Below, piece by piece: positions 44,607 through 60,883 of a DNA stretch of 64,000 nucleotides. The stretch's first letter is position 1. The number at the start of each line of letters is the position of its first letter. The notes under the pieces were generated by a model that was not told the origin of the DNA, made no database searches, and saw only the letters and a list, made by a program, of their open reading frames with translations. This stretch comes from Pseudanabaena sp. FACHB-2040 (lineage in GTDB: Bacteria > Cyanobacteriota > Cyanobacteriia > Phormidesmidales > Phormidesmidaceae), in NCBI RefSeq assembly GCF_014696715.1, contig NZ_JACJQO010000005.1, positions 620,001-684,000 of the forward strand, given 5' to 3'. A program made the position numbers and the translations under genes.

Positions 44607-44620
44607 CTGCTTATCTCCTC

Positions 44621-44648
44621 ACCGTCTACACCAAACCGTCTACACCAA
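44621..44648. repeat. 14-bp tandem duplication in the rfbA-rfbB spacer
   Basis: ACCGTCTACACCAA occurs twice directly in tandem (44621-44634 and 44635-44648) just upstream of the rfbB ribosome site. It is a perfect two-copy duplication and could alter spacing or be a recent replication slip. Confidence 0.85.
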
Positions 44649-44663
44649 AGCTTTGAACAGCCT

Positions 44664-45737
44664 CTAAACCAGCTCAATCTGCGAGTCGTCACCGACCAAA
44701 AACCGCAAGGCCTTAGGTCTTTGAGGCGTCGTTTTCAGGTGGACGCGCTGACCAATCACGCTGTCTACAATGCGGTGGGGAATGCCCTCAATCCGCGCTC
44801 CGCCTAAAATAACGCTGTGATCGACTTCTGTCTCAATCAGCGTAACTGAGTCAGAAATACTGCTGTAGGGGCCGATAAAGCAGTTCTCGATGTGACAGTT
44901 GCGGCCGATCACCACCGGCCCTCGAATCACAGATTTGATGATTGTGGTGCCAGAGCCAATCTGCACCCGACCACTGATCTGGCTGTCACGCCCCTCCACT
45001 TTGAGCGTAGTCGTCTGTAGACAGGTATCGAGCAAAATTCGGTTGGCCTCTAGCAGGTCGTCTTTTTTGCCGGTATCGAGCCACCAGCCCGACAGTTCGC
45101 TAGCCTTAACCACCTTGCCATCACTAATTAGCCGCTGGATGGCATCGGTAATCTCCAGTTCCCCCCGAGGGGAAGGCTGAATTCGATCAATTGCGGCATG
45201 GATAGCTGGGGAAAACAGGTAAACGCCCACTAGCGCCAGGTCGGAAGGAGGCACCTGAGGCTTTTCTACCAGCTCTAGCACCCGGCCATCTGCTGCCAGC
45301 TTAGCAACGCCAAAGGCCCGTGGATCGGTGACTCGCTTCAGCAAAATTGAGGCATCCAGGCACTCGCTCTCAAAGGAATAGACAAACAGATCGAGGCTGT
45401 CTTGAATTAGGTTGTCGCCCAGATACATCACGAAAGGCGAGTCTTGCAGAAAGGGCCGGGCTACCTTAACGGCATGGGCCAAGCCGCTGGGAGTATCTTG
45501 CAAAATATAGGTAATGCGGGCTCCAAAACGGCTGCCGTCGCCTGTACGAACCTTAATCTCGTCGCCGGTCTCTGGGCTAATCACGATACCGATTTCGGTG
45601 ATGCCCGCCGCCACAATATTTTCAATTCCGTACCACAGGATGGGCTTGTTCATCACCGGCACCAGCTGCTTCGCGCCGGTATAGGTGATGGGCCTCAGAC
45701 GGGTTCCCTTTCCTCCGGAAAGGATTAGCGCTTTCAT
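44664..45737 (-). CDS. rfbA: glucose-1-phosphate thymidylyltransferase, long form (RmlA/RfbA-like)
   Basis: 357 residues from ATG 45737 (ATG 45743 two codons earlier is equally possible; the AGGA ribosome site lies before both). GT-A nucleotidyltransferase: KALILSGGKGTRLRPITYTGAKQLVPVMNKP (~2-32), MYLGDNLI (~103) and EKPQVPPSDLALVGVYLF (~160). The C-terminal left-handed beta-helix region (~255-345) with repeated I/V-G-x patterns marks the long RmlA type, rather than the ~290-residue RfbA. It produces dTDP-glucose for rhamnose or other deoxysugars. It is followed by rfbB. Confidence 0.92.
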   Translation of the reverse strand: MKALILSGGKGTRLRPITYTGAKQLVPVMNKPILWYGIENIVAAGITEIGIVISPETGDEIKVRTGDGSRFGARITYILQDTPSGLAHAVKVARPFLQDSPFVMYLGDNLIQDSLDLFVYSFESECLDASILLKRVTDPRAFGVAKLAADGRVLELVEKPQVPPSDLALVGVYLFSPAIHAAIDRIQPSPRGELEITDAIQRLISDGKVVKASELSGWWLDTGKKDDLLEANRILLDTCLQTTTLKVEGRDSQISGRVQIGSGTTIIKSVIRGPVVIGRNCHIENCFIGPYSSISDSVTLIETEVDHSVILGGARIEGIPHRIVDSVIGQRVHLKTTPQRPKALRFLVGDDSQIELV

Positions 45738-45812
45738 CGTCATGCTTCCTCAGCCCAGTGGGTCATGGCTTAAATTTCAACCGTACATTCAAACCCCATT
45801 ACTGCCGGTTCC

Positions 45813-46694
45813 TTAAGGCGGTGCGGCCAGCTCAGCCAGCATTTTCCGCAGGCTCGCTCGCCAGTAGGGGGGTCTGCGCCCAAGTAGCTGCGAGATCTTT
45901 TGTGAGGAGAGCACCGAGTAGGCAGGTCGCTGGGCCGGTAGAGGGTACTCCGAGGTTGGAATGGGCACAACCTCGGGCAGGGTTTCGATCAGCCCCAGCG
46001 TTTGAGCCTCTTCAAAGATTGCGATCGCAAAGTCAAACCAGCTCGCCACCCCGCTGCTAGCAAAGTGGTAGAGCCCGCCCTGACCAGACTGCACCGGAGC
46101 CAGCAAATCACTCACCGTAGCCGCAATATCGTAGGCCCAGGTCGGTGCGCCCACCTGATCTACCACTACCCTTACCAGGCCCCGCTCAGGCCCTACCCGC
46201 AGCATGGTCTTAACGAAATTTTTAGCTGAGGGAGCCGCCCCATAAACCCAAGCTGTTCGCAGCACAATCGCTCGGTCAGTGGCCTGCAAAACAGCCACTT
46301 CCCCGGTTCGCTTAGAGTGACCGTAGATGCCGAGGGGAGCCGTTGTGTCGGTTTCCTCGTAAGGCGTGTTTTTGGTTCCGTTAAACACGTAGTCGGTGGA
46401 GAGGTGAATCATTGCAGCCCCGCACTGTTTTGCGGCCTCAGCCAGCAGACCGGGGACTGTTCCATTAATGCAATGGGCTAGCTCCGGCTCGGTTTCGGCT
46501 TTGTCAACAGCGGTGTAGGCTGCTGCATTGACCACTACCTGTGGCTGCAGGCTGCTCACCGTCTCAACCAGATGATCTAAGTGCGTCAAATCTAGCTCTT
46601 GGCGAGACAGGCAAACCAATTCACCCTGGCGGGCCAGCGTTCGCTGTAGCTCTTGCCCCACCTGCCCCTGACTGCCCAGCAGCACAATTCTCAT
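45813..46694 (-). CDS. rfbD: dTDP-4-dehydrorhamnose reductase
   Basis: 293 residues from ATG 46694. RmlD-type SDR: RIVLLGSQGQVGQELQRTL (~2-20), VVNAAAYTAVDKAE (~62), STDYVFNGTKNTPYEETD (~104) and YGHSKRTGE (~128, YxxxK). It reduces dTDP-4-keto-L-rhamnose to dTDP-L-rhamnose. Its ATG shares a base with the rfbC stop (TGATG), so rfbC-rfbD are translationally coupled; rfbA lies 75 bases downstream. Confidence 0.95.
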   Translation of the reverse strand: MRIVLLGSQGQVGQELQRTLARQGELVCLSRQELDLTHLDHLVETVSSLQPQVVVNAAAYTAVDKAETEPELAHCINGTVPGLLAEAAKQCGAAMIHLSTDYVFNGTKNTPYEETDTTAPLGIYGHSKRTGEVAVLQATDRAIVLRTAWVYGAAPSAKNFVKTMLRVGPERGLVRVVVDQVGAPTWAYDIAATVSDLLAPVQSGQGGLYHFASSGVASWFDFAIAIFEEAQTLGLIETLPEVVPIPTSEYPLPAQRPAYSVLSSQKISQLLGRRPPYWRASLRKMLAELAAPP

Positions 46695-47242
46695 CAGGCG
46701 TACACCTCTGCATCCTTCAGGCAAACGCCTGCCTCATCCTTAGCAGACAGAATAGGCTCTGCCTCGCCAAGAGGCCAGACTATCCCCACGTCTGGATCGT
46801 TCCAGAGCAGCGTGCGATCAAATTCGGGAGCATAGTAAGCCGTAGTTTTATACAAAACTTCGGCCCGCTCAGAAGTCACCAAAAAACCGTGGGCAAATCC
46901 GGGGGGAATCCAGAGCTGGCGCTTGTTTTCAGCGCTGAGCAAGACACCGACCCACTGCCCAAAGGTAGGGGAAGACTGCCTCAAATCAACGGCCACATCA
47001 AACACTTCGCCCACCACCGCCCGCAGCAGCTTGCCCTGAGGTTGCTGAATCTGATAGTGCAGCCCTCTGAGGATGTGGGCCCCTGAAGCGGAGTGATTGT
47101 CCTGTACAAAGTCTATATTCAGGCCGGTTTTGTCGCGAAAAACCCGCAGGCTAAAACTCTCCATAAAAAAGCCGCGATGATCGCCAAACACCTGCGGCTC
47201 CAAAATCAGCACTTCAGGAATCTCTGTCGGTGTAACTTTCAT
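46694..47242 (-). CDS. rfbC: dTDP-4-dehydrorhamnose 3,5-epimerase
   Basis: 182 residues from ATG 47242. Cupin-fold RmlC: VLILEPQVFGDHRGFFMESF (~10-29), QDNHSASGAHILRGLHYQ (~47-64) with the catalytic His of LRGLHYQ, and IPPGFAHGFLVTSE (~116). It epimerises C3 and C5 of dTDP-4-keto-6-deoxyglucose. It is the first gene of the four-gene rhamnose block in the order rfbC-rfbD-rfbA-rfbB. Confidence 0.95.
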   Translation of the reverse strand: MKVTPTEIPEVLILEPQVFGDHRGFFMESFSLRVFRDKTGLNIDFVQDNHSASGAHILRGLHYQIQQPQGKLLRAVVGEVFDVAVDLRQSSPTFGQWVGVLLSAENKRQLWIPPGFAHGFLVTSERAEVLYKTTAYYAPEFDRTLLWNDPDVGIVWPLGEAEPILSAKDEAGVCLKDAEVYA

Positions 47243-47398
47243 CCCAATCTTGGCAGCCCCAAACCCGAAAGATGTCCACACCACTTATACCAGAAGACGG
47301 CTGTTCCCCACCGCCCAAGCAGGATCGCTCGGAGGGCAGTGCTGCAAAAACTTCTGTCGTTTCACAGCAATCCGGCTCACAGCAATTCAAAAGGCCGT

Positions 47399-48730
47399 TT
47401 AAGACCCTAGCTCTTCTGCTACAGGCGTATTCACCAAATGGCGGAACTTAGAGCGCCAGCCCACCCGCTTTAGGTCGTTGAAGGTGACGAATTCAAGCGC
47501 GACGTGCTCTCCCCACCAGGCCGTGACTCGCTGCTGAATCTGCTCTGGATCGGCATGGGGGGCCAGCACGAGCCGTAGCAGGCAACGCTCTGGGCCTACC
47601 TGCTCTAGCTGAAACTCATCAATACCCCCCAACCGATCCAGCAAATCCTGCAGGTAGTGGGTCGGGTACTGGCGATTGCCCAGCCGCACCATATCGTGAA
47701 TGCGACCGGCAATATTGGTGATGTAAAACTCACCATCGACCCGCACCAGATCGCCCAAGTCGCCGGTTTTATAGCGCAGCAGCGGCATGGCGGCGTTCCT
47801 CAACCCAGTAAAGACGATCTCGTTTTGGGTGTCGGCAGCTACGGCTTCGCTCCAGACCATGAAGTCTAGAACTTTGAGGTGGCTCGACTGGGGAAATTCA
47901 GAGTGGGCTACGACGCCAAACTCAGCATTGCCATAGCGATCAAAAATCTGGCACTTGAACACGTCTGCGATCGCATCTCGCTGCTTGCCATCCAAAACTT
48001 CGCCCGTGGACTCAAAGACTTTAAACAGGGATTGAGGGGTCGCAAAGTGGCGCTTGGCGTAAAGGGCCAGGGTGTAGAGAGTAGAAGGGTGCCCCTGCAC
48101 GCTGTAGGGCCGGGTTCGCTGAAGCTGTCGCAAAATGTTCTCTAGAGAAGCATCATCGAAATCAGCAGTGCGAATGTTGACCCGGTTTAGGGTGATGCAC
48201 TTAATCGATTCACGGAGGCGATCGCGCCAGGGAATCTCCTCCGGAAACTCTGAGGAAAAGTGGGCTTCCTTGGTGTAGCGCTTTTTGCCGGTCCACTCCA
48301 GCACAAACAGGTTGGCAGCAGCCGTCCAGTCAAGGGCCTCGTCATCGTAATAAATCAGGGTGGAGGGGCCGGTGGATCCGCCTGTTTTACGGACGTGGAG
48401 CCCAGTGCGATCGCAGCTCTCGCTCAGCAGCCGCTCTCCCTGCTCGCGGATGATGTCTTTGGTCAAGTAGGGAATGTCTTGGAAGTAGGCGCTATCTTTA
48501 GCCAGCCGCTCCGGGTCAAAGCCAATCGCTTGGAACAGGTCGCGGTAGTAGGGCACTGTTGCAGCAGCAGCGGCTACCATCTCGGCTAGGCGCTGCTGAA
48601 TGGCTTGCGATCGCGCCTCCCGCGAGAGCGCCGAGAACGCCCTAAGCTGAGCCAGCTTTGGCAAAATGTTGCGCTTTTGCTGCCGCTCTACCAGCGGGTA
48701 GAGCACATAACTAATTAGAGCCTTGCTCAT
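47399..48730 (-). CDS. adenylate-forming CapK/PaaK-like enzyme
   Basis: 443 residues from ATG 48730, with GGGGAGAG ribosome site. It resembles the phenylacetate-CoA ligase-like CapK family found in capsule loci: AATVPYYRDLFQAIGFDPERL (~53-73), the P-loop VRKTGGSTGPSTLIYYD (~110-126), QGHPSTLYTLALYA (~212), IFDRYGNAEFGVVAHSE (~262) and YKTGDLGDLVRVD (~320). CapK-like enzymes are thought to activate carboxylates for polysaccharide modification; the substrate here is unknown. It is the gene immediately following the GT4 pair, 14 bases after the stop of one of them. Confidence 0.85.
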   Translation of the reverse strand: MSKALISYVLYPLVERQQKRNILPKLAQLRAFSALSREARSQAIQQRLAEMVAAAAATVPYYRDLFQAIGFDPERLAKDSAYFQDIPYLTKDIIREQGERLLSESCDRTGLHVRKTGGSTGPSTLIYYDDEALDWTAAANLFVLEWTGKKRYTKEAHFSSEFPEEIPWRDRLRESIKCITLNRVNIRTADFDDASLENILRQLQRTRPYSVQGHPSTLYTLALYAKRHFATPQSLFKVFESTGEVLDGKQRDAIADVFKCQIFDRYGNAEFGVVAHSEFPQSSHLKVLDFMVWSEAVAADTQNEIVFTGLRNAAMPLLRYKTGDLGDLVRVDGEFYITNIAGRIHDMVRLGNRQYPTHYLQDLLDRLGGIDEFQLEQVGPERCLLRLVLAPHADPEQIQQRVTAWWGEHVALEFVTFNDLKRVGWRSKFRHLVNTPVAEELGS

Positions 48731-48744
48731 TTTTGGACTCTCCC

Positions 48745-49725
48745 CTAGACAATTCGCGAATAGGCTTCTTGCAGCTGCTCCGCCGCCCGCCGCCAAGTGT
48801 AATGGGTCGCGACGTGCTCCTTCAAGCCAACCGGCCGAGCCGCCCCAAGCTGAGCCTCAACCCCCGCTCGAATGCTCTCCACCGACATCGGATCAACATA
48901 CTCCACAAAGTCACCAAAATATTCGCGCGTGCAGCCCTCCTCGGTCAGCACAATCTTGGCCCCCGCCGCTGCGGCCTCTAGGGCAGATAGCCCCGGCGTT
49001 TCCAGAGTGCTCGGCAGAACAAACAGCTCACAGGCGTAATAGGCAGACAGCAGCAGCTCACTCCGGTGAGGAACATACCCAAGATACTTCATACACCCCT
49101 GGCTTTCCTCCAGGCAGCGATTGAAGTAGTCTCGATCACGAATATTGCCCAGCACCACCAGATCGATGCCCAGATCTCGCACCGCCTGCACCAGACGCCG
49201 CTGGTTTTTGCGCGGCTCAATATTGCCGACATTCAGCAAAAACGGCCCCTCAATGCCAAATTTCTGACGAAACAGGTCTGGCGAAATGCCTTCCTGAAAG
49301 AAAAAGTTGTCGATCCCGTTTACCACCGGATGAAACTTCTCTATCGGCACCCCAAACACCTGAGCCAGATTCACCGCCTCAATTTGAGAGTTGGGCAGCA
49401 GTACGTCGGCCAAGTGCAGCAAATGCCGAATTTCATCCACTGGGTACAGGCCCGCTCCGTAAGTCTCTTTGGTGATCCAGAGAATGGGGGAAATCGCCAG
49501 CGGCAGCTGGCGATTGTGCTTGACATAGTTGCAAAACACAGACGATCCGCCCATGACCGAAAAGAAATGGACGGCTTGGGCCTGATCAAACTGAGGCTGC
49601 CAAGGGTCGTAGGGAATCACGTTTTCCCCCAGAGCCTCCAGCGCCTCTTTTGACTTCAGGAGTTGAATCTCGCCGCCTCCCGGACAGTCAAAGGCAACAG
49701 GATAGGTATTAAACAGGATATTCAT
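48745..49725 (-). CDS. glycosyltransferase family 4
   Basis: 326 residues from ATG 49725. GT-B fold: NILFNTYPVAFDCPGGGEIQLLKSKEAL (~2-29) binds the acceptor, FLLNVGNIEPRKNQRRLVQAV (~154-174) and the C-terminal nucleotide-sugar motif ELFVLPSTLETPGLSALEAAAAGAKIVLTEEG (~235-266, with ExxxxxxxE form). A retaining transferase of surface glycan assembly; sugar specificity unknown. It overlaps the upstream GT4 by 17 bases and is followed by the CapK-like gene. Confidence 0.9.
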   Translation of the reverse strand: MNILFNTYPVAFDCPGGGEIQLLKSKEALEALGENVIPYDPWQPQFDQAQAVHFFSVMGGSSVFCNYVKHNRQLPLAISPILWITKETYGAGLYPVDEIRHLLHLADVLLPNSQIEAVNLAQVFGVPIEKFHPVVNGIDNFFFQEGISPDLFRQKFGIEGPFLLNVGNIEPRKNQRRLVQAVRDLGIDLVVLGNIRDRDYFNRCLEESQGCMKYLGYVPHRSELLLSAYYACELFVLPSTLETPGLSALEAAAAGAKIVLTEEGCTREYFGDFVEYVDPMSVESIRAGVEAQLGAARPVGLKEHVATHYTWRRAAEQLQEAYSRIV

Positions 49726-50872
49726 CTTCAAATACCAGGGGCGCTTCTAAAAATTTCCAGATGGCTGAACCGTTGGCGTCAGCCTGCATTGCCTGCAGGC
49801 GTTGAGTCTGCCGGTTCAAAATCAGCTGCTGCTTTTGAGGATCTGACAAGACCTCGTACACATCCTGGGCCAGGCTATCAAACGCCTTCTCATAGAAAAC
49901 TTTGCCCGATCGTCCCAATGTCTCACGAACGGCCTCTTGACCATAGGCGAAAACGGGTACCCGAAAATGCATTGCCTCTACCAGGGGAATGCAAAAGCCC
50001 TCATGCTCACTCATCATCACTAGAGCGCTAGCAGACTGATAGGCAGTTTTGAGCTGACCATCGCTAATCATGCCCAAGAAGTGAATTTTGTCTTTTAGAA
50101 ACGGATAATCTGCGGCAAGAATGCGATCTAGAAAGTCTTTGTACACAGCAAAGTCGGTCGAGCCAATAACAACTAGATGGGCTGCTTCATCCAGTTTAGA
50201 GTAGGCAGCAAAGAGCTTAATTAGATCTTCCACTCGTTTGTGAGGTACGACTCTGCCTACGTAGAGCAGGAAGCGATCGCAACTCAAATCTGCGATCGCT
50301 TCCGCTTCCACCACACTCCACTTCTGAAAATCCACCAGCGGTGGAATAATCTGAATTTCCTCTAGCTTGAGGGGCTTGCGAACAATTTTTTGCAGCGCTC
50401 TCGCTGCCGATTCAGAGATTGCGCCATACTGATCAAAGGCATCTAACAAGTGCCCCTGCTGATACCCCTTCAAGCAGTGATCGGCTAGTTCGGGCTGATA
50501 TGCCTCTAGAAACTTGGGCGGCGTAATGCCGTAAAAAATAGCCGTCTTGTAGCAGCTAAGCTGCGATAGCGCCTCCAGCTCTGGCAAAAAAATAGAGAAG
50601 TTGACGATAAGAAGATCTGTAGGTTCTATCTCTTGATACAGCTCAGAAATTGGATAAACCTTCCCCTCTAGCTCCGGGCTATAGGCTCCAGAATAGTAAA
50701 GGCGGCAGGGCACTTTATTTCTCTGTAGCAGATCGTAAAAGTAAAGAATAAAGTTGCCAATGGCATCGCCAATATGAATATTATTTGAAACCATGTGAAC
50801 GGTTTTACCCGCTGGCCAGAAAAACCAGGGAAACACCAGTTCTTGACTTTTTAAAGACGACGCTTCTTGCAT
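49709..50872 (-). CDS. glycosyltransferase family 4
   Basis: 387 residues. The N-terminal half has HMVSNNIHIGDAIGNFILYFYDLLQ (~26-50), the C-terminal Rossmann domain FLLYVGRVVPHKRVEDLIKLFAAYSKLDEA (~201-230) and the donor motif ALVMMSEHEGFCIPLVEAMHFRVPVFAYG (~290-318, EHEGFCIPLVEAM). Typical retaining GT4 enzyme of O-antigen or EPS assembly. Overlaps the next GT4 (17 bases), so these two form one unit. Leu/Ala/Gln-rich N-terminal half with a long helical part. Confidence 0.9.
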   Translation of the reverse strand: MQEASSLKSQELVFPWFFWPAGKTVHMVSNNIHIGDAIGNFILYFYDLLQRNKVPCRLYYSGAYSPELEGKVYPISELYQEIEPTDLLIVNFSIFLPELEALSQLSCYKTAIFYGITPPKFLEAYQPELADHCLKGYQQGHLLDAFDQYGAISESAARALQKIVRKPLKLEEIQIIPPLVDFQKWSVVEAEAIADLSCDRFLLYVGRVVPHKRVEDLIKLFAAYSKLDEAAHLVVIGSTDFAVYKDFLDRILAADYPFLKDKIHFLGMISDGQLKTAYQSASALVMMSEHEGFCIPLVEAMHFRVPVFAYGQEAVRETLGRSGKVFYEKAFDSLAQDVYEVLSDPQKQQLILNRQTQRLQAMQADANGSAIWKFLEAPLVFEDEYPV

Positions 50873-51034: not shown

Positions 51035-52222
51035 TCATCGGTTGTCCCAGACTCCCTGCAGTCGTTCTAACATCCCCCGGCATCTTCCTTCCCAAGTGTT
51101 TTCTTGGGCGGCAGCTATCATAGCCTGTTTTTTTAAGGCAGACTCTCCAACCAAAATTTCTTCAATCGCGCTAATGAATTTTCCGGAGGTAGAACAGACC
51201 TCATGCAGCCCTTGATAGCTCTCCAGGGCAGGCAGCGGAGTTGCCACAATCGGCTTGCCCGCCGCTAAATACTCAAAGAATTTCATGGGAAACATCGAGC
51301 GCGTATAGTCGTTTAGCAGGCAGGGCAGTGTCACCACATCAAAGCCCCGCAGGTAGTCTGGGAGCATCCCATAGGGACGCTCCCCTAAAAAATGAACATT
51401 CAAACCGCTAAATCGTTCCCGCAGAGCCTCCGGGGCAGCCACTTCAAAGGCCCCAATCAAAACCCAAGCCCACTCCGGTCGAGCTTGGGCAATTTGCTCA
51501 ATTAGGTCAAAGTCGATCTTGTAGTCTTTAATGGTGCCAACAAAGCCAATTCGGGGCGCGGCAATGGTCGCTAAGTCCTCAGGGATTTTTCCTGGGGTTT
51601 GCGCCTTTGAAAAGTGCCCATAGTCAGCCACGTTGGGAAAGTAGTGGGTTTTTTGAGGTGCGATCGCAGCCAGCCTTGCCTGTAGAGAGGGACTGGTGGT
51701 AAACACAACGTCAGCCTTATTTACCGTCTCCAGTTCTGCCGGTACCACCAGCTTGGCATCGATCCCGGGGACCGTAGCCAGATCATCGACGCAGTGGTAA
51801 ACGGTTAAAGACTCTCCCAACGTGCCCATCAGTTCATGGGCTAGCGGGTTATAAATCCAAAGGATCGGATTTTGCAGCCGCAGCAGCCTCGACAGAAGCC
51901 GCACGATGCCGCCCAAAACAGACCAGTTCAACCGACGAATCCAGGGGTTGTGGTAAAAGGGCAGCACCAGAGGCGAGTATGCCCAAACCTGAGGCTCTAC
52001 CCGGCGAACCAGCCGCAGCCCTTTTCTCAACCGGCGAAAAATTCGCTTAATATCTCTGGCCGACGCCGTTGGGCTTCTCAGTCCCTGAGACTCCACATAG
52101 AGCACCCGAAAGCCCTGACGCGCCAATTCATGGGCCATATGCTGATTGTTTGTCCAGCCCGACTGAGTCCAGTCTGCCGTTGACAGCACAATAATGCTGC
52201 TGGGTAATTGCCGACTGCCCAC
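51035..52222 (-). CDS. glycosyltransferase (GT4-like; acceptor-type, TuaH-related)
   Basis: 395 residues from GTG 52222; a TTG at 52306 directly after the preceding gene's stop is possible, but the segment between is G-rich and unlike coding sequence, and GTG has GGAGAGGCA upstream. N-terminal SSIIVLSTADWTQSGWTNNQHMAHELARQGFRVLYVES, then YHCVDDLATVPGID (~135) and a C-terminal Rossmann domain RIGFVGTIKDYKIDFDLIEQIAQARPEWAWVLIGAF (~225-260), with FFEYLAAGKPIVATPLPALE as donor motif. It resembles GTs with UDP-hexose or galactosyl donors, but the sugar is not known. Confidence 0.8.
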   Translation of the reverse strand: MGSRQLPSSIIVLSTADWTQSGWTNNQHMAHELARQGFRVLYVESQGLRSPTASARDIKRIFRRLRKGLRLVRRVEPQVWAYSPLVLPFYHNPWIRRLNWSVLGGIVRLLSRLLRLQNPILWIYNPLAHELMGTLGESLTVYHCVDDLATVPGIDAKLVVPAELETVNKADVVFTTSPSLQARLAAIAPQKTHYFPNVADYGHFSKAQTPGKIPEDLATIAAPRIGFVGTIKDYKIDFDLIEQIAQARPEWAWVLIGAFEVAAPEALRERFSGLNVHFLGERPYGMLPDYLRGFDVVTLPCLLNDYTRSMFPMKFFEYLAAGKPIVATPLPALESYQGLHEVCSTSGKFISAIEEILVGESALKKQAMIAAAQENTWEGRCRGMLERLQGVWDNR

Positions 52223-52306
52223 TGCCTCTCCCACTCCACGCCTTACAAGATCTAAGCAGATCCTGTGCAAATCCTGGTGCCGATATGCCTTGCCCAGCAG
52301 AACCAA

Positions 52307-53908
52307 CTAAATGCCGAGGTCGATAGTCTCCCCCCGCCAGCCAACAGAAATTGTAGGAAGGTCGCCCGGAATGCCTTTAGGATCGCAGCGCACCTGAAGC
52401 TGGTCAGCTTCGACAGATATCTGAACCTGGTCCCGCTTACGGACAAAATCAAGGCACTGCACCAGATTTGGGAACCAAATATCCTCGTGAGACTGAATGA
52501 ACCGGATCAGCTCAGCATGGGCTGCTAAGCGCTCAGTCTCACTCAACCAGCCGTACTGGTAGGTTGCCGAAAACGGGTGATCTAAGTATCCAAAAATGTT
52601 GCCCGCTTTCAGGTGATTACTAAAACTCTCCAGGTAGGGGTCTACTGAATTGCCGTAGCGATGGTAGCAGTCCCCGTGCAGCATACACTGCTGGCTGTGG
52701 GAAACAATCGGTGGCTCACAAAAAGGCACTCGGCCGGCCCGCCCAATCAAATACTCCGGATCGTTGTGGATAATGCCCCCCACAAAGCCCTGATACCCCG
52801 CATCAGTAAGGGCCTGGACTGCGTAGGGTGGATTTTGGTGAAAGGGAGACACCGCATAGCGAACTGAGCCGACTTCAGGCAGATGTTGCTCCAGCCAGCG
52901 CTTTGAGTCTTGTGCTTCCTGCAGTGCCTGGGCATGGTCAGCACCCCAGTTAGGCGGATGGGTAACTGAGTGAGACACGACCGATCCACCTGCGGCAATC
53001 ACGTCTCGCAGCAGGGCCATGTCTTCTACTTGAGGCGGCAACCCAGTGACCACGGCTAGGGAGAAGGGCAGCCCCGCATCTCTGTAAAGTTCAAACAGGG
53101 GCCGGGAAGTTGCGATCGCTTGATCACAGTCCAGCCGCATCGTGACAGCCCCCTGATACCCCGACGGAATTTCCCTGAGGTGAGGAATGCAGGGAAGCTC
53201 ATCAGAGCGATAGTGGCTGTAGAAGTCCTCTACAATTGCCCATTCCCAACTGTCTACTGGACCCACTTGGCGGTTGAACCACAAAACCTCCGAGGTCTCA
53301 AAGGAGGTTAAAGACGCATAGAGGCCAAAAGTTTGCCCGATCTGATTGGTTAGCTGAGCGAGCGAGCTGGCCGTTATTGCCCTGACTTTCTGGCAAATTG
53401 ACCAAGGGCTAGGCCCCTTTTGAATACCTCCAAAGCCCAAAGTGTTCCATTCGTCCGTAAAGTCATAGCGTAGTAAAGGCCGGCTCCGGGCCTTCAACCG
53501 AGCCAAAATAGGTGAATCTGAAACGTAATGAATGGACAACTGAGACTGATCGAATGTATCTGTTTCAATTAAGGACAGATAGTCCTGGAAATCTCCAGCT
53601 TCTAGCGCTTCAACTTCCAATCCAAGAGTTCTACCTAGGGCTACTCCTAAGGAGCCCAACAGGATGATCTTGGTCCGTTTTGCTAGCAGCTGTTCAATCA
53701 GGCCAGCCTGCTCGTCTTGCGGGTTTACAAACAAGTAGCAGCCGTCAACTTGCTCTGTAGCAACATAATTTAGCCGCTGCACCCCGGCCACAGAAAAAGA
53801 TCGAATCAAAGCAGCTTCCACAATAGAAACCAGCTCTATATCCTCTTGGCGGCCTATAAGGTTGATTGGCACAGTAGAGTATTCAAACTTAAAACTACTT
53901 TTGGACAC
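52307..53908 (-). CDS. NodB-type polysaccharide deacetylase-like protein
   Basis: 533 residues from GTG 53908 (SD AGGA upstream; TTG 53923 lacks one). The C-terminal half (from ~265) is a carbohydrate esterase 4-like domain: AVTMRLDCDQAI (acid pair LDCD in place of TFDD) and VVSHSVTHPPN (His pair). A downstream YAVSPFHQNPPYAVQALTDAGYQGFVGG fits the fold. The N-terminal ~260 residues are not recognised but contain a metal-free, alpha/beta-like stretch (GRQEDIELVSIVEAALIRSFS...). Probably cytoplasmic (no signal peptide), so it may deacetylate a nucleotide- or lipid-linked sugar. In the glycan locus, upstream of the GT at 51035. Confidence 0.75.
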   Translation of the reverse strand: MSKSSFKFEYSTVPINLIGRQEDIELVSIVEAALIRSFSVAGVQRLNYVATEQVDGCYLFVNPQDEQAGLIEQLLAKRTKIILLGSLGVALGRTLGLEVEALEAGDFQDYLSLIETDTFDQSQLSIHYVSDSPILARLKARSRPLLRYDFTDEWNTLGFGGIQKGPSPWSICQKVRAITASSLAQLTNQIGQTFGLYASLTSFETSEVLWFNRQVGPVDSWEWAIVEDFYSHYRSDELPCIPHLREIPSGYQGAVTMRLDCDQAIATSRPLFELYRDAGLPFSLAVVTGLPPQVEDMALLRDVIAAGGSVVSHSVTHPPNWGADHAQALQEAQDSKRWLEQHLPEVGSVRYAVSPFHQNPPYAVQALTDAGYQGFVGGIIHNDPEYLIGRAGRVPFCEPPIVSHSQQCMLHGDCYHRYGNSVDPYLESFSNHLKAGNIFGYLDHPFSATYQYGWLSETERLAAHAELIRFIQSHEDIWFPNLVQCLDFVRKRDQVQISVEADQLQVRCDPKGIPGDLPTISVGWRGETIDLGI

Positions 53909-53941
53909 CGCTTCCTGGAGCAAATAAAGGCTCAGACAACT

Positions 53942-54697
53942 TCATTCCTGGTTCCAGATTGTATGCATTAACCAATCTCGACCTGAAATGCCAGCTGCAT
54001 CCTCCGACAACAGGAAACGAATAAGGCCAGCCACCTCAGAAGGGGATGACAGCCTGCCTAACTCCAGAGGGCTCGTAATTTCCTGCAGGTAATTCTCAAG
54101 ACTCACACCCTTCTCATCTGCAATTCTCTGAGAGTCGACCCTGGACATCTCAGTATCTACCCAGCCAGGGCAAACAGCATTCACTGTGATTCTGCGGTGG
54201 CCCAACTCTTTAGCCCAACACTTGGTCAAGCCAATCAGCCCAAACTTTGATGCACAGTAAGCACCGTAGCCTCTCCTACCCTCTTTGCCAAGCTGAGAAG
54301 AAATGTTGATAATTCTGCCGCCATCCTGAATTTTGCTGAGCAGATTAGCAGTTAATAAATAAGGAGCAGCAAGATTAGTTGCCAATATCTCATCCCACTC
54401 ATCTAGGCTCTGATTCTCGTCAATTCGTCTAACCTTACAAATACCGGCATTATTAATCAATCCGTAAACGGGATCATTAACAGCCTCACAAAAGGAGAGG
54501 ACAGAGTCCCTATTGGATAGGTCAACTTCACAGGTTGAAACAGCACCAAAATCTTCTAAATCAGTTTTAGCCTGGTCTAGGCTAATTTTATTTTTACCCA
54601 CAACGACAACTTGATAACCGTCTTTTAGTGCGCCCCTTACGATCTCAAATCCAATCCCTCTGCTGCCTCCCGTAATAATTAGCTTTCGGCTGCTCAT
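53942..54697 (-). CDS. short-chain dehydrogenase/reductase next to sugar-phosphate cyclase
   Basis: 251 residues, classical SDR: cofactor motif ITGGSRGIGFEI (~8-19), NNAG (~85), catalytic Ser-Tyr-Lys in ISSQLGKEGRRGYGAYCASK (~133-152) and PGWVDTEM (~179). It probably uses NAD(P)H on a keto-sugar or cyclitol ketone. Its ATG overlaps the stop of the cyclase gene (ATGA), so the two are translated together and it is likely to act on the cyclase product. The DNA is AT-richer than the surrounding genes. Confidence 0.9.
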   Translation of the reverse strand: MSSRKLIITGGSRGIGFEIVRGALKDGYQVVVVGKNKISLDQAKTDLEDFGAVSTCEVDLSNRDSVLSFCEAVNDPVYGLINNAGICKVRRIDENQSLDEWDEILATNLAAPYLLTANLLSKIQDGGRIINISSQLGKEGRRGYGAYCASKFGLIGLTKCWAKELGHRRITVNAVCPGWVDTEMSRVDSQRIADEKGVSLENYLQEITSPLELGRLSSPSEVAGLIRFLLSEDAAGISGRDWLMHTIWNQE

Positions 54698-55824
54698 AAA
54701 GGATAATTCTTGTAGTCATCAAGAAGGGATGCAAAGTCCTGAATGCGAACTCTGGAGAAGTAAGAGTCCCCCTCTCGATGGGGTTCTCCAACCCGGGTCA
54801 ATAACCCTAAGGATACCTTGCCGTCATAGTAGTGCTTATCGTACTTGACATGGTAAATAATTTTATCAGCCTCCAGCTCAGCAGGAACTGTGAACGGCAA
54901 TCGGTAGTGCTTTAAGACACTAACGTGCTGACTGAGTAACTCTTCACTGCATAGACCTAATTTGTTTGCCGCAAAGGCTGAAAATGCCATACCGATAGCA
55001 ATGGCTTCCCCGTGCAGCATCTCATTCTCGCTAGCATGTTCTATCGCATGCCCCAAAGCGTGACCGTACTGCTTGATCGCTTCGTTGTAAAGGAAAGGAT
55101 CGTTAGCGGATGACTCATACTCCGACATAATATCCAGCTTCAGTGAGACACTTTTGCGGATAACGCTGTTCATTCTTGCCGGATCCCAAGCAAACGGGTC
55201 TTGAGTGAGCAGTTCTTGATAAAAGGAATAGTCTTGGCAGAGGGCATGCTTAATAACCTCTGCAAAACCATCGATCAAAAACCGCTCTGGCAGGGTGTTT
55301 AGAAAGTCAACACAAATAATGACTGCCGTTGGGGGGTAGTAGGAGCCTATGGAATTTTTAGCAAAAGTGGAGTTAATAGCTTGCTTAACGTCTACCGCTG
55401 CATCTGCTTGGGAAAGCAGGGTAGTAGGAATATGAACGAGCTGAATTCCTCGGTAGAGTGTAGAGGCAATAAAGCCAGCTAAATTGTTGACGACTCCGCC
55501 ACCAAAGCTAACGATGCTGGAGTATTTATCAATGCCGATGTTAAGAATTTTAGAAATACACTCGCCGTAAGTTTCTAAACTCTTTGAATCTTCACTCGCT
55601 GGAACTACGATCGGGAATACTTTGATGCCCAGATTCGCTAAGCAATCGAGCACAAAGTCTAGATGCAGAGCAGCAAGGTTCTCGTCTGTAATGAGAATGT
55701 TGGCCGACTCTTGACTGAAGAGATTGAGTCTAGCTAGAAAATCAGCTAGTTCCTGCTTCTGAGGATAATAAATTTTTACCTGAGATTTTTTTTCAAACTT
55801 AAAATCCTGAAAAAAGTCAGCCAT
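54694..55824 (-). CDS. sugar-phosphate cyclase, 2-deoxy-scyllo-inosose synthase-like (DHQS superfamily)
   Basis: 376 residues from ATG 55824 (SD AGAGG). NAD-dependent DHQ-synthase fold: SFGGGVVNNLAGF (~106-118), IPTT (132-135), metal ligands Glu189 (GFAEVIKH), His255 (YGHALGHA) and His271 (LHGEAIAIGM). The diagnostic loop reads ADAAVDVKQAINSTFAKNSIG (140-160), with KQAIN where DHQ synthases have SSVGGKTGVN and EEVS enzymes carry DAxxxxKxGVN. KQA(V/I)N and the following YYPP match 2-deoxy-scyllo-inosose synthases (BtrC type), which cyclise glucose-6-phosphate. It overlaps the SDR downstream and the DUF5672-like gene upstream. Confidence 0.82.
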   Translation of the reverse strand: MADFFQDFKFEKKSQVKIYYPQKQELADFLARLNLFSQESANILITDENLAALHLDFVLDCLANLGIKVFPIVVPASEDSKSLETYGECISKILNIGIDKYSSIVSFGGGVVNNLAGFIASTLYRGIQLVHIPTTLLSQADAAVDVKQAINSTFAKNSIGSYYPPTAVIICVDFLNTLPERFLIDGFAEVIKHALCQDYSFYQELLTQDPFAWDPARMNSVIRKSVSLKLDIMSEYESSANDPFLYNEAIKQYGHALGHAIEHASENEMLHGEAIAIGMAFSAFAANKLGLCSEELLSQHVSVLKHYRLPFTVPAELEADKIIYHVKYDKHYYDGKVSLGLLTRVGEPHREGDSYFSRVRIQDFASLLDDYKNYPL

Positions 55825-56659
55825 TTCTGAACCTCTTTCCGTCAAATTCCTTAATCAACTGTTCGAGGTCAAATCTTTCATTGAGAAGCCGAAGCCAAAA
55901 CTCTCTGGACTCTTTGAATTTGAACCAGGCATGAGCCCCGAATGGTAGTTCCCCATGATTCATCGTCAAGCATTTCTCAGGGTTGTACTCAAACCCAAAA
56001 GCGAGGGAGTCTTCAAGGGAGCCCAGCTTAAAGTCACCCTTAAAGCGATTGGCCCAAAATCCCCAGAACATATCCTCATTATTGCTAAAAACTTTACCTT
56101 TATGTAAAAGGCTAGAGTACCGCTGGATCATATCACCAAACGAGCAAAGTGAAGTATCTTTGCCAAGTGCCCGCTGGGCCTCTGCGATCGCACCTCTCAA
56201 AGCTTCAATGCAGGAGGAAACCTTGCGCAGAGAAAAACCACCGTTACCACACCCAAAATCGACGTAGTTCCAGGTTACATTTTCCCAGAACTCTATTTCA
56301 TTCCTATCCCACAAAGGACCAATGTAGTCGTACTGCTTCTGGCACCACTCAAGCAGGCGATCTGAAAGAACTAGAGAGTCCAACTGATAAATCAAAATAT
56401 AATCAAAATCTTTAAACTGAGTGTAAAAATCAATGTCAAGTAGAAGCTGACTGTAGTTGTTATGAGAGCGGAAGAACCAATCATCGAATGAGAACAAGGT
56501 CCAACCGGAAAATTTCAGGTTTAAGGAATGTGGTTTGACGATAACTCTCGTATGGTTAGCTAAGACATGATCTGCTAGCAGGAAGGAAATCTTCTCGTAT
56601 TCATTAAAATCTGGTTTGTATAGAGGCAGAACCACTGCAACTCGCAGATCTGTTGACAT
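55817..56659 (-). CDS. DUF5672-like (putative glycosyltransferase) protein
   Basis: 280 residues from ATG 56659. The pattern RVAVVLPLYKPDFNEYE (~5-21), YILIYQLDSLVLSDRLLEWCQKQYDYIGPLW (~88-118) with the D..D..WC..YDYIG series, and GCGNGGFSLRKVSSC (~134-148) matches the DUF5672 family that accompanies glycan loci and has a GT-A-like outline. The QLDS stretch may be the DxD-like donor site. Overlaps the sugar-phosphate cyclase by 8 bases. The DNA is AT-rich relative to the window. Activity is unproven. Confidence 0.75.
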   Translation of the reverse strand: MSTDLRVAVVLPLYKPDFNEYEKISFLLADHVLANHTRVIVKPHSLNLKFSGWTLFSFDDWFFRSHNNYSQLLLDIDFYTQFKDFDYILIYQLDSLVLSDRLLEWCQKQYDYIGPLWDRNEIEFWENVTWNYVDFGCGNGGFSLRKVSSCIEALRGAIAEAQRALGKDTSLCSFGDMIQRYSSLLHKGKVFSNNEDMFWGFWANRFKGDFKLGSLEDSLAFGFEYNPEKCLTMNHGELPFGAHAWFKFKESREFWLRLLNERFDLEQLIKEFDGKRFRNG

Positions 56660-56902
56660 TGCTAGCCACGGCAAAACTTTGACTGAACTAGAGGCGATCC
56701 AATTATCTCACCTAGCAGCAGTAATAAGCCTCGTTCAGAACACTTTATTCCGCTAAGGACAATTGAAGACCTTAAACCTCATAAACAGTTCCCTTGAGGG
56801 GGTGTAGGAGGAGGCAGGGCCGTATTTTGTTTGTGTACGTGATGCCCTAAAAGAAAATAGCGGATCTGAAGGCACTCCCCTGTACAGCGCTTTAAAGACG
56901 TT

Positions 56903-57994
56903 TTATAGGGCGGCAATTCTGCTTAAAGCTTTTTCTGCAACCGTGGCAGTGGAGAATTGCTCTGAAACAAACTTATAGGCAGCCTCAATTTTTTCCTGTC
57001 TCAAACCGGGATGCTCTGAGCAGGTCTTTAAAGCTGATACTGCAGATGCATGGGAAGGATCAAACCATTTAGCATCCCGCCAAAAAGGGTAAGCATAGGG
57101 CGCAACGTCTACCAATTTGCCCTCAACAAGAAAAGAAGTGTTTTCATTGCAGTAGTCAACATTGCCTGAGTAATCAGAAGTGACAACCGACTTCCCGAGC
57201 AGCATAGCCTCAGCCATAGTTCGACCAAATCCTTCTGATCGGTGTAGAGATACATAGGCATCTGAAAGTTTAAACAGAAGGTTGATTTGAGCTTTGCTGA
57301 AAGATTCATTGATAAAGATTACGTTGGGCGCAGCCGCAATCATCTCGCTTAGTTCTTCATCATGATGCCTGTAATTCATTGTTTTTAGAATTAAACAGGT
57401 CTCTTGACTTCTCCCAAAAGCGCTAGCAAAGGCCCGCAGTAGGCCCTTTGGATTTTTGCGAATCAGCGTTGAGTTAGCATCAAATACAAAAAGAAATTTG
57501 AAGGAGTCTGCCTCAAGAGCTTCAATAGAAGTGGGTAAGGCTTCAAACTGTAATGGCTCTTTAATAATTAAGGGAATGTGAAATACGGGTTTACTAAAAG
57601 AGTTCTGAAAGCAGTTTAAAGTAAAAGCTGATGAAGCCCAAATTTCATCAACCAAGTCCTGGATAAAGGAAAAATCCTTAGGCCATAGGGATAATTCCCA
57701 GGGCCAATAGCCGATGTTATACCTGCCTTCGAAAGGTTCTGGCCCAAATTCCAGAAAAAAATGCATTAGCTCAAACGCAGGAAAGCAGAAAATGTTGCAG
57801 CTATACTTCAAACTGTCTGAAACATACTGCTCGCAAGACCTATCACCCTGTCGTGTAGTTAACCTTTTGGGATAGTTAAAAATAGTCGTTGGCACTCCCG
57901 AACTAACAAGGGCTTCAGCCAATGTTCGAACATCTTCGCCAAGACCTAGTTCACCAAAAACAGGCCCAATAATATTTACGCCATCAACTGTCAT
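56903..57994 (-). CDS. glycosyltransferase family 4 (AT-rich island)
   Basis: 363 residues. N-terminal NIIGPVFGELGLGEDVRTLAEALVSSGVPTTIFNYP (~6-41), NIGYWPWELSLWPKDF (~92-107), and the C-terminal donor motif DAYVSLHRSEGFGRTMAEAMLLGKSVVTSDYSGNVDYC (~246-283) with the SEGFGR...E signature. Such EGFGR-type GT4 enzymes occur in O-antigen loci and on large multi-domain glycosyltransferases. The gene is AT-rich compared with flanking genes. 22 bases separate it from the repeat-protein gene upstream on the same strand. Confidence 0.88.
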   Translation of the reverse strand: MTVDGVNIIGPVFGELGLGEDVRTLAEALVSSGVPTTIFNYPKRLTTRQGDRSCEQYVSDSLKYSCNIFCFPAFELMHFFLEFGPEPFEGRYNIGYWPWELSLWPKDFSFIQDLVDEIWASSAFTLNCFQNSFSKPVFHIPLIIKEPLQFEALPTSIEALEADSFKFLFVFDANSTLIRKNPKGLLRAFASAFGRSQETCLILKTMNYRHHDEELSEMIAAAPNVIFINESFSKAQINLLFKLSDAYVSLHRSEGFGRTMAEAMLLGKSVVTSDYSGNVDYCNENTSFLVEGKLVDVAPYAYPFWRDAKWFDPSHASAVSALKTCSEHPGLRQEKIEAAYKFVSEQFSTATVAEKALSRIAAL

Positions 57995-58016: not shown

Positions 58017-59114
58017 TTAGACCTCAGCAGTTAGATAATTTGACAAGAGCTGTTCGACTTCCTGTTTGTAATTATAGACCTTGACAAGTTCTGAATCCTG
58101 CAACTCTCCGCTGTTCCTAAGCCTCTCCCAGTTAAAAGACCAAAAGGCCATCCTACCCTCAGCTCGACCACAAGAGAGCCAATGCTGATATCCAGAAGTG
58201 ACCTGGCCTGCTTTAATTGCCTCCATTACGTCGAGATTTGCATTTAAATACTCAGTTTCGTTGAAGCATAAAGGTAGTTTAAATTTGTTAGACCAGAAAG
58301 CGGTTCTACCCTCTTCCTTGCCATGACGCACCCAGTGTTGGTGCCCAGAAACCATTAAACCTGCCCTGACTATTTCTGCAACATCGGGGTAGGTATTGAA
58401 ATACTCGGCCTCATTGAAGGAGGAAGGTAGGTCGAATTTGTCGGACCAAAAGGCCTTTCTGTCTTCCTCAATACCGCATTGAATCCAGTGCTGATATGCG
58501 GAGGCAAACACACCTGCTTCAATAGCTTCTATGACGTCAGGGTATGCCTTGATATATTTTGTTCCGTCAAAGCACAAGGACAAGTCAAATTCTCTCAAAG
58601 CTGTTAAAAACTGATTGTTTTCAACAAATGCTTCAAGCGGTAGTTTTTCGACAGCAGTTTCAATCAGATGGGACTTGGGCAGCGTACTATAGCCCCAATC
58701 CCTAATCCACAGTAAATATAAAATTAATCCCTCTACAGAGGTCAGATTGAACTTGTTTTTCAAATCTTCTCGAGTTAAGTAGAGGCAGTAAAAGAAAACA
58801 GGCAAGTAGAGCCTGTTTTCTTCTGATTCAGGCAGGATTGATTTCAAGAGAAAATCAACCATCTCGTTGTGGTCAAAAACATGTTCCAGGTGATGGAAAT
58901 TTTTGACCAACTCATCATATCCGAGCAAGAACCATCCTAAATAGCGGATTAATCCACTACGAGTATAAAGATCAAAGTTGGGCTGAAAACTGAATCCATG
59001 AGCAACCCACAAAGCAGCCAACATATTTGGCAAGTGCCAGGTAGAGTCTCCCGCCTTTAAAGAGAAGCTGCTGTTGCCCAACAGGGTTGAGTTTTTAAAG
59101 GTTTTCGGGCTCAC
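58017..59114 (-). CDS. hypothetical protein with three 51-residue C-terminal repeats
   Basis: 365 residues from GTG 59114. Residues ~1-180 are an unassigned alpha-helical domain rich in aromatic residues (WFLLGYDELVKNFHHLEHVF). From ~182 to 331 three repeats follow with exactly 51-residue spacing (HW at 209, 260, 311): consensus FNxxEYxxxYPDVxxAIxAG, then SGxQHWxxxGxxEGRxAFW. This YPDV...HW...GxxEGR pattern is known from glycan-related and RTX-like surface proteins. No signal peptide is visible, so a cytoplasmic partner role with the GTs is possible. The gene is AT-rich and lacks HIP1 sites. Confidence 0.75.
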   Translation of the reverse strand: MSPKTFKNSTLLGNSSFSLKAGDSTWHLPNMLAALWVAHGFSFQPNFDLYTRSGLIRYLGWFLLGYDELVKNFHHLEHVFDHNEMVDFLLKSILPESEENRLYLPVFFYCLYLTREDLKNKFNLTSVEGLILYLLWIRDWGYSTLPKSHLIETAVEKLPLEAFVENNQFLTALREFDLSLCFDGTKYIKAYPDVIEAIEAGVFASAYQHWIQCGIEEDRKAFWSDKFDLPSSFNEAEYFNTYPDVAEIVRAGLMVSGHQHWVRHGKEEGRTAFWSNKFKLPLCFNETEYLNANLDVMEAIKAGQVTSGYQHWLSCGRAEGRMAFWSFNWERLRNSGELQDSELVKVYNYKQEVEQLLSNYLTAEV

Positions 59115-59287: not shown

Positions 59288-60067
59288 CTATACATTCTCC
59301 ATACTGACAGCCAGCGGTAGCGCAGAAGCAGCGCTACCAACATGATTCAGGTACATTTCAGTGATCTCCTTAGGCTCTCCTGAGGCTAGGATTTGGCTGT
59401 CTTGCAGCCAAATCACCCGATTGCAGGAGTCTTGGATCATCTCCATGCTGTGGGATACGACCAATACGGTTGTATGGTTGTTCCAAAGCTGATCCATGCG
59501 GGCTTTGCTCTTTTGCTTAAAATTTTCATCTCCTACCGATAGAACCTCGTCCACGATTAGGATGTCGGGCTTAACTTCAGTTGCGATCGCAAACGCCAAC
59601 CGCGCCACCATCCCCGAAGAAAGCCCCTTGAGTGGAGCCGAAGCATAGTCCTGCAAATCTGCAAAATTGAGGATATCGTAAGTGCGCCTCACCATCTCGC
59701 TGCGGGGAAACCCTAGCAGTACCCCGTAGAGAATAATATTGTCAATAACAGAAATATCGGCTTCAAACCCTGCCCCCAACTCGATCATAGGCGCGATCCG
59801 GCCTTTGACTCTGACTGTTCCTTGGGTAGGCTTTAAGATACCAGAGATCACCTTTAATAGGGTAGACTTTCCAGCTCCATTGGGGCCAATGATGCCAACT
59901 TTTTCCCCTTGCTGGATAACGAGGTCAACCTGTGTCAATACGCGCTTTCGAGCAGGCTTTCTGTACTTGCCTTCTAGAATAGAAAATAAGGTTCGCTTCA
60001 GATCGTAGGAAAACTCTTCCTGCGTCCTTCTCCAAAGGGAAACTTGATCCAGCCGTATAGCTTCCAT
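59288..60067 (-). CDS. wzt: O-antigen/polysaccharide ABC exporter ATPase (Wzt-like)
   Basis: 259 residues: Walker A GPNGAGKSTLLKVISGILKP (~61-80), RIAPMIELGAGF (~91) characteristic of Wzt/TagH-type exporters, signature GLSSGMVARLAFAIATE (~148-164) with LSSGM rather than LSGGQ, and Walker B ILIVDEVLSVGD (~168-179), the DEVL..GD wording typical of polysaccharide exporters. The short C-terminus has no carbohydrate-binding extension, suggesting export of a glycan without a terminating cap. Its partner permease gene lies 6 bases upstream. Confidence 0.92.
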   Translation of the reverse strand: MEAIRLDQVSLWRRTQEEFSYDLKRTLFSILEGKYRKPARKRVLTQVDLVIQQGEKVGIIGPNGAGKSTLLKVISGILKPTQGTVRVKGRIAPMIELGAGFEADISVIDNIILYGVLLGFPRSEMVRRTYDILNFADLQDYASAPLKGLSSGMVARLAFAIATEVKPDILIVDEVLSVGDENFKQKSKARMDQLWNNHTTVLVVSHSMEMIQDSCNRVIWLQDSQILASGEPKEITEMYLNHVGSAASALPLAVSMENV

Positions 60068-60073
60068 AGGGTT

Positions 60074-60883
60074 TTATAGTAAATCCATAAACTGAGGTTT
60101 GAGCCACTTAAAGGTAAACCACCCAAAACTCATAAAAATAATGCCGCTGAGCCAAGAGGTTGCCACCAAGGTTAGGTCGGGAGCCTCCCCTGAAAGCACG
60201 ATTTGCCGTGTACTTTCTATAATCGGATACATGGGATTTAGCTGCAAAAAACCGGCCACTTCCTCGGGCACAATAGCTGATGGGTAGAAAATTGGGCTAG
60301 TGATCCAAAGGGCAAAAGTGACCAGCTCATACATGTAGGGTAAGTCCCTAAAGAAGACGTTCAAAGCAGCCATCAGTAGCCCAATACCAGTACAGACCAT
60401 AGTCAGACCAACAAAAGGCAAAATAACAGCTGCCGCATTGAGAACGCTATAGGAGATCAATAGGGTCATAACCACTAGAAGCGGCCAGACAGTGAGGCAA
60501 AATTGGAAGGCATTGGCTGCAATTATAGAGAGGGGGAAAGCACTCATTGGTAAGTGCATCTTATTGAGCAAGCTGCCGTTGTTGACCAGGCTTGAGAGTG
60601 CCTGTGATGTAGAAGTCGAGAAGAAGTTAATTACGGCCATCCCCGTGAAGGCCGCCAAGATATAGTTAAGAATCGAGTTGTTATAGTATTCTGCGAAGGT
60701 AGTTCCAAAGATAGTGGTGTAAACCCCTGTCATAATAAGTGGGTTTAATAGAGACCAGTAAATTCCTAAAAGTGAGCCACGATAGCGCACCTTTAGGTTT
60801 CGCTCCACCAAAACCTGTAAAATTTCCCAGTATCTATAGGCTTCGACCTGGGTTGGCAGTAGCTTCTTCACAGTGAGCGCCAA
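60074..60883 (-). CDS. wzm: O-antigen/polysaccharide ABC exporter permease (Wzm-like)
   Basis: 269 residues with six membrane helices. The N-terminal amphipathic part RYWEILQVLVERNLKVRYRGSLLGIYWSLLNPLIM (~17-51) is the hallmark of ABC-2 polysaccharide permeases; near the C-terminus PMYPIIESTRQIVLSGE is also typical. It begins with TTG 60883, with AGGA eight bases upstream; GTG 60871 is an alternative. Together with the adjacent Wzt it exports a lipid-linked glycan across the cytoplasmic membrane. It is the first gene of the leftward wzm-wzt unit. Confidence 0.92.
   Translation of the reverse strand: MALTVKKLLPTQVEAYRYWEILQVLVERNLKVRYRGSLLGIYWSLLNPLIMTGVYTTIFGTTFAEYYNNSILNYILAAFTGMAVINFFSTSTSQALSSLVNNGSLLNKMHLPMSAFPLSIIAANAFQFCLTVWPLLVVMTLLISYSVLNAAAVILPFVGLTMVCTGIGLLMAALNVFFRDLPYMYELVTFALWITSPIFYPSAIVPEEVAGFLQLNPMYPIIESTRQIVLSGEAPDLTLVATSWLSGIIFMSFGWFTFKWLKPQFMDLL

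Follow-up and report, generated by a model that had tools for sequence, protein, structure and literature searches.

A sugar phosphate cyclase of an unnamed clade in a cyanobacterial surface-glycan locus: a possible route from hexose phosphate to an exported glycan

What would a sugar phosphate cyclase (SPC) make in the middle of a surface-glycan locus? To our knowledge, the products described for SPCs so far comprise the shikimate precursor and, beyond that, small molecules of secondary metabolism. The gene for one such enzyme, P0001, lies among glycosyltransferase and polysaccharide-exporter genes in a 64,000-nucleotide stretch of Pseudanabaena sp. FACHB-2040 DNA (the window). A loop in the protein had led to the original prediction of a cyclase resembling the 2-deoxy-scyllo-inosose synthases (DOIS) of aminoglycoside producers rather than the 3-dehydroquinate synthases (DHQS). 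Among the papers searched, we found none on an SPC in a polysaccharide locus; one match, in a capsule paper (PMC6461280), goes back to nothing more than an automatically assigned "DOI aminotransferase" label. The reading we prefer, to which we would give an even chance, is that P0001 belongs to an unnamed clade outside both DOIS and DHQS and would convert a hexose phosphate to a deoxyinosose that is reduced by the adjoining dehydrogenase and used in an exported glycan.

The cyclase gene and its surroundings

P0001 is read from the minus strand (54694-55845), with a length of 376 aa if translation begins at the ATG at 55824 and of 383 aa if it begins at the TTG at 55845, while the plus strand of 54694-55824 has many stops and no open frame. 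The protein (HIPTTLLSQADAAVDVKQAINSTFAKNSIGSYYPP) matches Pfam DHQ_synthase with E 3.7e-35, through both PF01761 and PF24621. Its AlphaFold2 model (mean pLDDT 92, pTM 0.91) superimposes on DHQS 1nr5 with Z 45 and on DOIS 2gru with Z 41, and Foldseek returns 2gru at E 6.5e-27. The Pfam match and the agreement of the model with SPC structures put membership in the superfamily far beyond chance, although the fold comparison matches DHQS and DOIS alike and does not tell them apart. In addition to the DHQS-type fold, P0001 retains the expected metal ligands E189, H255, and H271 and the lysines K81, K147, K156, and K192, all of which are invariant among 33 SPCs. Judged by its sequence, P0001 is a complete SPC with its catalytic residues intact. 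The best NCBIfam score is to aroB (TIGR01357), at 276.4 bits below the cut-off of 305. TIGR04425, an AroB-related putative sugar phosphate phospholyase (cyclizing), resembles P0001 in being an SPC with no product assigned; P0001 is not a member, since its score of 202 bits falls short of the cut-off of 400.

The neighborhood is as had been predicted from the sequence. The stop codon of P0001 lies within a 4-base overlap (54694-54697) with the start of a short-chain dehydrogenase/reductase (SDR) gene, and at its 5′ end P0001 shares 8 bases with a gene for a DUF5672 protein (55817-56674; PF18922, E 3.3e-45); all genes of the locus listed in this paragraph are on the minus strand. The SDR (53942-54697) carries the Tyr-x3-Lys motif as YCASK. 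Beyond it lie a polysaccharide-deacetylase-like protein (52307-53923, a weak match to PF01522), the glycosyltransferases GT_a (51035-52306), GT_b (49709-50872), and GT_c (48745-49731), and an adenylate-forming ligase of PaaK/CapK type (47399-48796) with GGSTG and YGNAEFG motifs; the dTDP-rhamnose genes rfbB, rfbA, rfbD, and rfbC (43533-47284) adjoin the locus. On the other side are a further glycosyltransferase, GT_d (56903-57994), a 365-aa protein with no function label (58017-59114), and the ABC exporter formed by a Wzt-like ATPase (59288-60067) and a Wzm-like permease (60074-60883). The 365-aa protein contains internal repeats (FNEAEYFNTYPDVAEIVRAG...) and has no match in Pfam, NCBIfam, or PHROGs. 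No cyclitol kinase or cyclitol nucleotidyltransferase is recognized within this locus, and no 2-deoxystreptamine-type aminotransferase gene is adjacent to P0001. The GC content is 43-46% in the SDR, SPC, and DUF5672 genes, mostly 52-57% on the side running from the ligase to the deacetylase-like gene (47% in GT_b), and 42-49% on the exporter side.

Placement among the sugar phosphate cyclases

The loop KQAIN and the YYPP that follows it are both present in P0001, and BtrC, a DOIS (PDB 2d2x), has KQAVN and FYYPP at the same place. The loop is also distinct from that of the genome's own aroB (GGKTGVN) and of its own DDGS (IKVAVN). Thus far the motif is as described; its use as a mark of the DOIS of aminoglycoside producers does not stand, because it is shared by many other SPC groups. 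The pattern KQA[IV]N...[GA]KN..G, run on the genome_contigs collection, matched at least 117 stretches. Almost all of those listed encode SPCs, the exceptions being two other proteins (L069 and L125), and the matches listed come from Actinomycetota, Bacillota, Pseudomonadota, Cyanobacteriota, Chloroflexota, Planctomycetota, Myxococcota, and other phyla. A loop that is easily taken for a DOIS signature marks several SPC groups that have no assignment.

More informative are two positions counted from the metal-binding His of the "GH" motif. DHQS have Arg at −7 and Asn at −3 (7/7), DOIS-type proteins have Gly and Glu (9/9), and the clade of P0001 has Glu and Gln (4/4; E248 and Q252 in P0001), a signature that offers a simple sequence test for this clade. 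Proteins in which an SPC is fused to a nucleotidyltransferase, considered below, have Ala or Gly at −7 and Gln at −3 (6/6), and the other KQA groups have Ala or Gly, with a few Ser or Cys, followed by Glu (82/82); at −3, Leu or Glu is found in a handful of minor KQA groups that are not part of the sets counted here. In DHQS structures, the Arg/Asn pair contacts the substrate carboxylate. As far as these residues go, the DHQS pair is gone from the P0001 clade and an amide stands in place of the DOIS acid. Two side observations concern the same position. A separate group of SPCs with the loop SNKQAVNG (loci L037, L097, L126, and L134 among them) is widespread in cyanobacteria (Brasilonema, Moorena, Okeania, Crocosphaera), Clostridia, Desulfobacteria, and Planctomycetes; 38/38 of its members carry Glu at this position. 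The protein encoded at L062 3092-4162 has a KQAIN loop with Leu at this position and scores 325.9 bits against the aroB equivalog cut-off of 305, so automatic annotation will name it a DHQS; since a KQA-loop protein passes the cut-off, the aroB model is not decisive.

We placed P0001 in a tree of 78 SPCs, with supports given as SH-aLRT from a quick search. Because the loop pattern selects for the loop itself, the trees were rerun without the loop columns. P0001 shares 46-47% identity with proteins of Ralstonia, Trinickia, and Sulfurovum; its identity to the SPC domains of the fusion proteins (from Myxococcota-type MAGs) is 38-43%, and that to DOIS and DHQS is about 33%. The four proteins of P0001, Ralstonia, Trinickia, and Sulfurovum form a clade (support 98, or 97 without the loop columns), and the fusion proteins are its sister (92, or 95 without them). 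Also without the loop columns, the KQA-loop proteins fall on one side of a branch (98) with DHQS and EEVS/DDGS on the other, and EEVS and DDGS make up a distant separate group (100). The best tree puts P0001 outside DHQS (98), as had been proposed, although a forced grouping with DHQS survives the AU test (p-AU 0.18 for the P0001 clade with the fusions and 0.07 for the clade alone), and the branch of P0001 is long (1.27-1.34). Uniting the P0001 group with the BtrC/Streptomyces-type DOIS group, on the other hand, is rejected (p-AU 0.0005).

This last result bears on the proposal that P0001 is a true DOIS, recruited from antibiotic biosynthesis and turning glucose 6-phosphate into 2-deoxy-scyllo-inosose as BtrC does, which we consider improbable. 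P0001 does share with BtrC (2d2x, 2gru) the SPC fold, the KQA[IV]N loop, YYPP, and the metal and NAD site, and 2gru is among the structures that Foldseek retrieved. However, the two are only ∼32% identical over the matched part. The Glu at BtrC position 243, found in 9/9 DOIS-type proteins, is Gln252 in P0001 and Gln in every member of its clade; the Asn after the VK of CELVKN is His, and the DNK motif is DKH. BtrC is encoded in an antibiotic locus and P0001 in a glycan locus that has no 2-deoxystreptamine-type aminotransferase beside the cyclase. The chemistry could still be common to both enzymes, and P0001 is more than a stray DOIS-like loop, but the label DOIS is not supported.

The genome (6.28 Mb, carrying zeta-carotene-desaturase-like and mycosporine genes) has two further SPCs: a true aroB with GGKTGVN, ∼9.4 kb from P0001, and a DDGS. 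The DDGS gene lies in a mycosporine-type cluster (L005 5524-9135, at about 1096 kb of G000:C5) together with methyltransferase and ATP-grasp-like genes. With a separate aroB and a separate DDGS at hand, P0001 is relieved of both jobs. The same can be said with regard to aroB for the P0001-type genes of Ralstonia, Trinickia, and Sulfurovum, whose genomes have a second, aroB-like SPC elsewhere. P0001 is like AroB in its fold, in its top generic HMM score, and in an identity of ∼33% to the genome's own aroB; it differs in falling below the curated cut-off and in lacking the GGKTGVN-type loop as well as the Arg and Asn that precede the YGH motif in DHQS. The view of P0001 as a non-DHQS cyclase in a surface-glycan locus accords with its position on the KQA side of the branch and with the presence of this aroB.

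SPCs that act on heptulose phosphates exist, and carba-sugars are nucleotide-activated in acarbose-type pathways. A C7 carbasugar, formed from sedoheptulose 7-phosphate in the manner of EEVS/EVS and leading to a carba-hexose for sugar-like activation, would fit this general knowledge. We nevertheless find it highly unlikely for P0001, which shares with EEVS/DDGS (4p53, 5tpr) membership in the superfamily and, in the case of DDGS, the genome. The sedoheptulose 7-phosphate cyclases form their own distant group, have the loop K[TV]A[IV]N, and carry Ala or Asp at the key position, none of which applies to P0001.

A gene set shared across three phyla

We compared five loci with a cyclase of this clade: that of the window and those of Ralstonia (G059), Trinickia (G060), another member of Burkholderiaceae (G973), and Sulfurovum (G061). 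Besides the cyclase, all five keep four genes at 38-53% identity, namely the SDR (49-53%), the PaaK/CapK-like ligase (41-43%), the deacetylase-like protein (38-40%), and GT_c (46-49%). The Wzt-like ATPase is likewise found in 5/5 loci and GT_a in 4/5 (43% in the three Burkholderiaceae loci); the DUF5672 gene was found in none of the other loci compared. The members carrying the set belong to three phyla, as Cyanobacteria, Burkholderiaceae, and Campylobacterota.

Relatives within the family show what the locus looks like when the cyclase is missing. The genomes G1174 and G1163 have the ligase, GT_c, GT_b, GT_a, deacetylase-like, and rfb genes at 45-78% identity (54-56% for the deacetylase-like protein), and neither has an ortholog of P0001, both being drafts and the G1163 contig short. 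Where the window has the SDR, SPC, and DUF5672 genes, G1174 has a 296-aa protein, a large glycosyltransferase, and an epimerase; on the far side, GT_d (46%), Wzt, and Wzm follow in the order of the window, and the 365-aa protein has a partial match (32%). From this comparison, the SDR-SPC-DUF5672 block reads as a cassette swapped within a glycan locus. Since these two relatives have the genes for the glycan backbone but not the cyclase, the linkage could reflect cassette traffic instead of one pathway.

Orthologs of P0001 are correspondingly sparse. None was found in 58 other genomes of the nearest relatives, where the best matches are at most 36% identical. We found the clade marker motif KQYGHAxGHA in 1 of 386 genomes of the phylum, in 3 of 200 genomes of the family of Trinickia, and in 1 of 150 of the order of Sulfurovum, the query genomes being included in each count. 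A scan of genome_contigs and viral_contigs for exact 8-mers of the P0001 protein alone gave no relatives, the family being too divergent for such a search. For P0001, plasmid searches yielded only generic SPCs (up to 36%), and for the deacetylase-like protein they yielded nothing. This scarcity, the cassette-free relatives with other genes at the same place, and the low GC of the cassette relative to most glycan genes on one side would all suit a horizontally acquired passenger whose product is a soluble cyclitol with no connection to the polysaccharide. Against it are the recurrence of the five-gene set in three phyla and the overlaps of a few bases that join the genes in one apparent operon, and we regard the passenger reading as quite unlikely.

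Sister fusions and a proposed route to the glycan

The best hint as to the product comes from the sister clade. Its members (L026, L029, L073, L076, L092, and L094; ∼620-690 aa, in Myxococcota-type genomes) begin with a nucleotidyltransferase domain whose nearest solved relatives are the inositol-1-phosphate cytidylyltransferases 2xme (E 8e-16) and 4mnd (E 4e-15). The same family is the best NCBIfam nucleotidyltransferase match in 4/4 fusions tested, at scores far below the equivalog cut-off. In the three fusion loci that we examined further, an SDR (34-39% identical to that of the window) adjoins the fusion gene, and in two of them, G063 and G064, a PfkB kinase follows. This arrangement suggests an order of cyclization, reduction, phosphorylation, and nucleotide activation, and these loci probably encode a pathway to a nucleotide-activated cyclitol. 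By the likeness of the fused domain to inositol-1-phosphate cytidylyltransferases, the product of the P0001 clade may be inositol-like as well. The nucleotidyltransferase and kinase steps of the sister clade are absent from the window locus, and searches of the genomes that carry these cyclases with the fused domain gave weak generic matches only (E 5e-6 in the genome of the window).

In the route that we favor, P0001 would cyclize a carboxylate-free hexose phosphate, with glucose 6-phosphate as the first candidate, to a deoxyinosose, with NAD+ and a divalent metal as cofactors. The neighboring SDR, which has its Tyr-x3-Lys motif, would reduce the ketone to a deoxyinositol or a related cyclitol. 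The cyclitol would then be added to the glycan of this locus, either as a glycosyltransferase acceptor or after activation by a gene elsewhere, and exported via Wzm/Wzt. The earlier suggestion of a deoxy-cyclitol, or of a cyclitol pathway not yet described, still stands, and both the conserved gene set and the sister fusions add weight to it; that the cyclitol is a constituent of the polysaccharide we infer from the setting of the gene.

Two conserved genes, the adenylate-forming ligase and the deacetylase-like gene, would find a role in a different scheme, in which a DHQS-like cyclase forms 3-dehydroquinate or an analogue and the SDR reduces this to an acid resembling quinate. Once activated by the ligase, the acid would be joined through an amide or ester bond to an amino sugar that the deacetylase-like protein has uncovered. 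The aroB model as top HMM score (276 bits, under 305) and the unrejected union with DHQS (p-AU 0.18) are in keeping with such a carboxylated product. However, the Arg and Asn that meet the carboxylate in DHQS are Glu and Gln in P0001, the loop reads KQAIN instead of GGKTGVN, G1174 and G1163 carry the ligase and deacetylase-like genes but lack the cyclase, and the evidence from the sister clade favors a product of the inositol type. On balance, we think this scheme unlikely.

Returning to the deoxyinosose route, a clade of SPCs tied to Wzm/Wzt loci would, if the route is right, mean that carbocyclic non-sugar units are added to surface polysaccharides. More broadly, and somewhat more tentatively than for P0001 itself, we propose that a distinct SPC class builds an inositol-like carbocycle into surface glycans by way of a mobile five-gene set (cyclase, SDR, PaaK/CapK-like ligase, deacetylase-like protein, and glycosyltransferase) in Cyanobacteria, Burkholderiaceae, and Campylobacterota, and that the sister fusion class makes a nucleotide-activated deoxyinositol.

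We also note KQA-loop SPCs in Chloroflexota (L048 4071-5192, L065, and L074 2750-3838). Those at L048 and L074 are flanked by methyltransferase-like ORFs and an apparent UbiA-type prenyltransferase, labels assigned by reading the sequences, and these neighbors suggest a quinone-like or lipid pathway.
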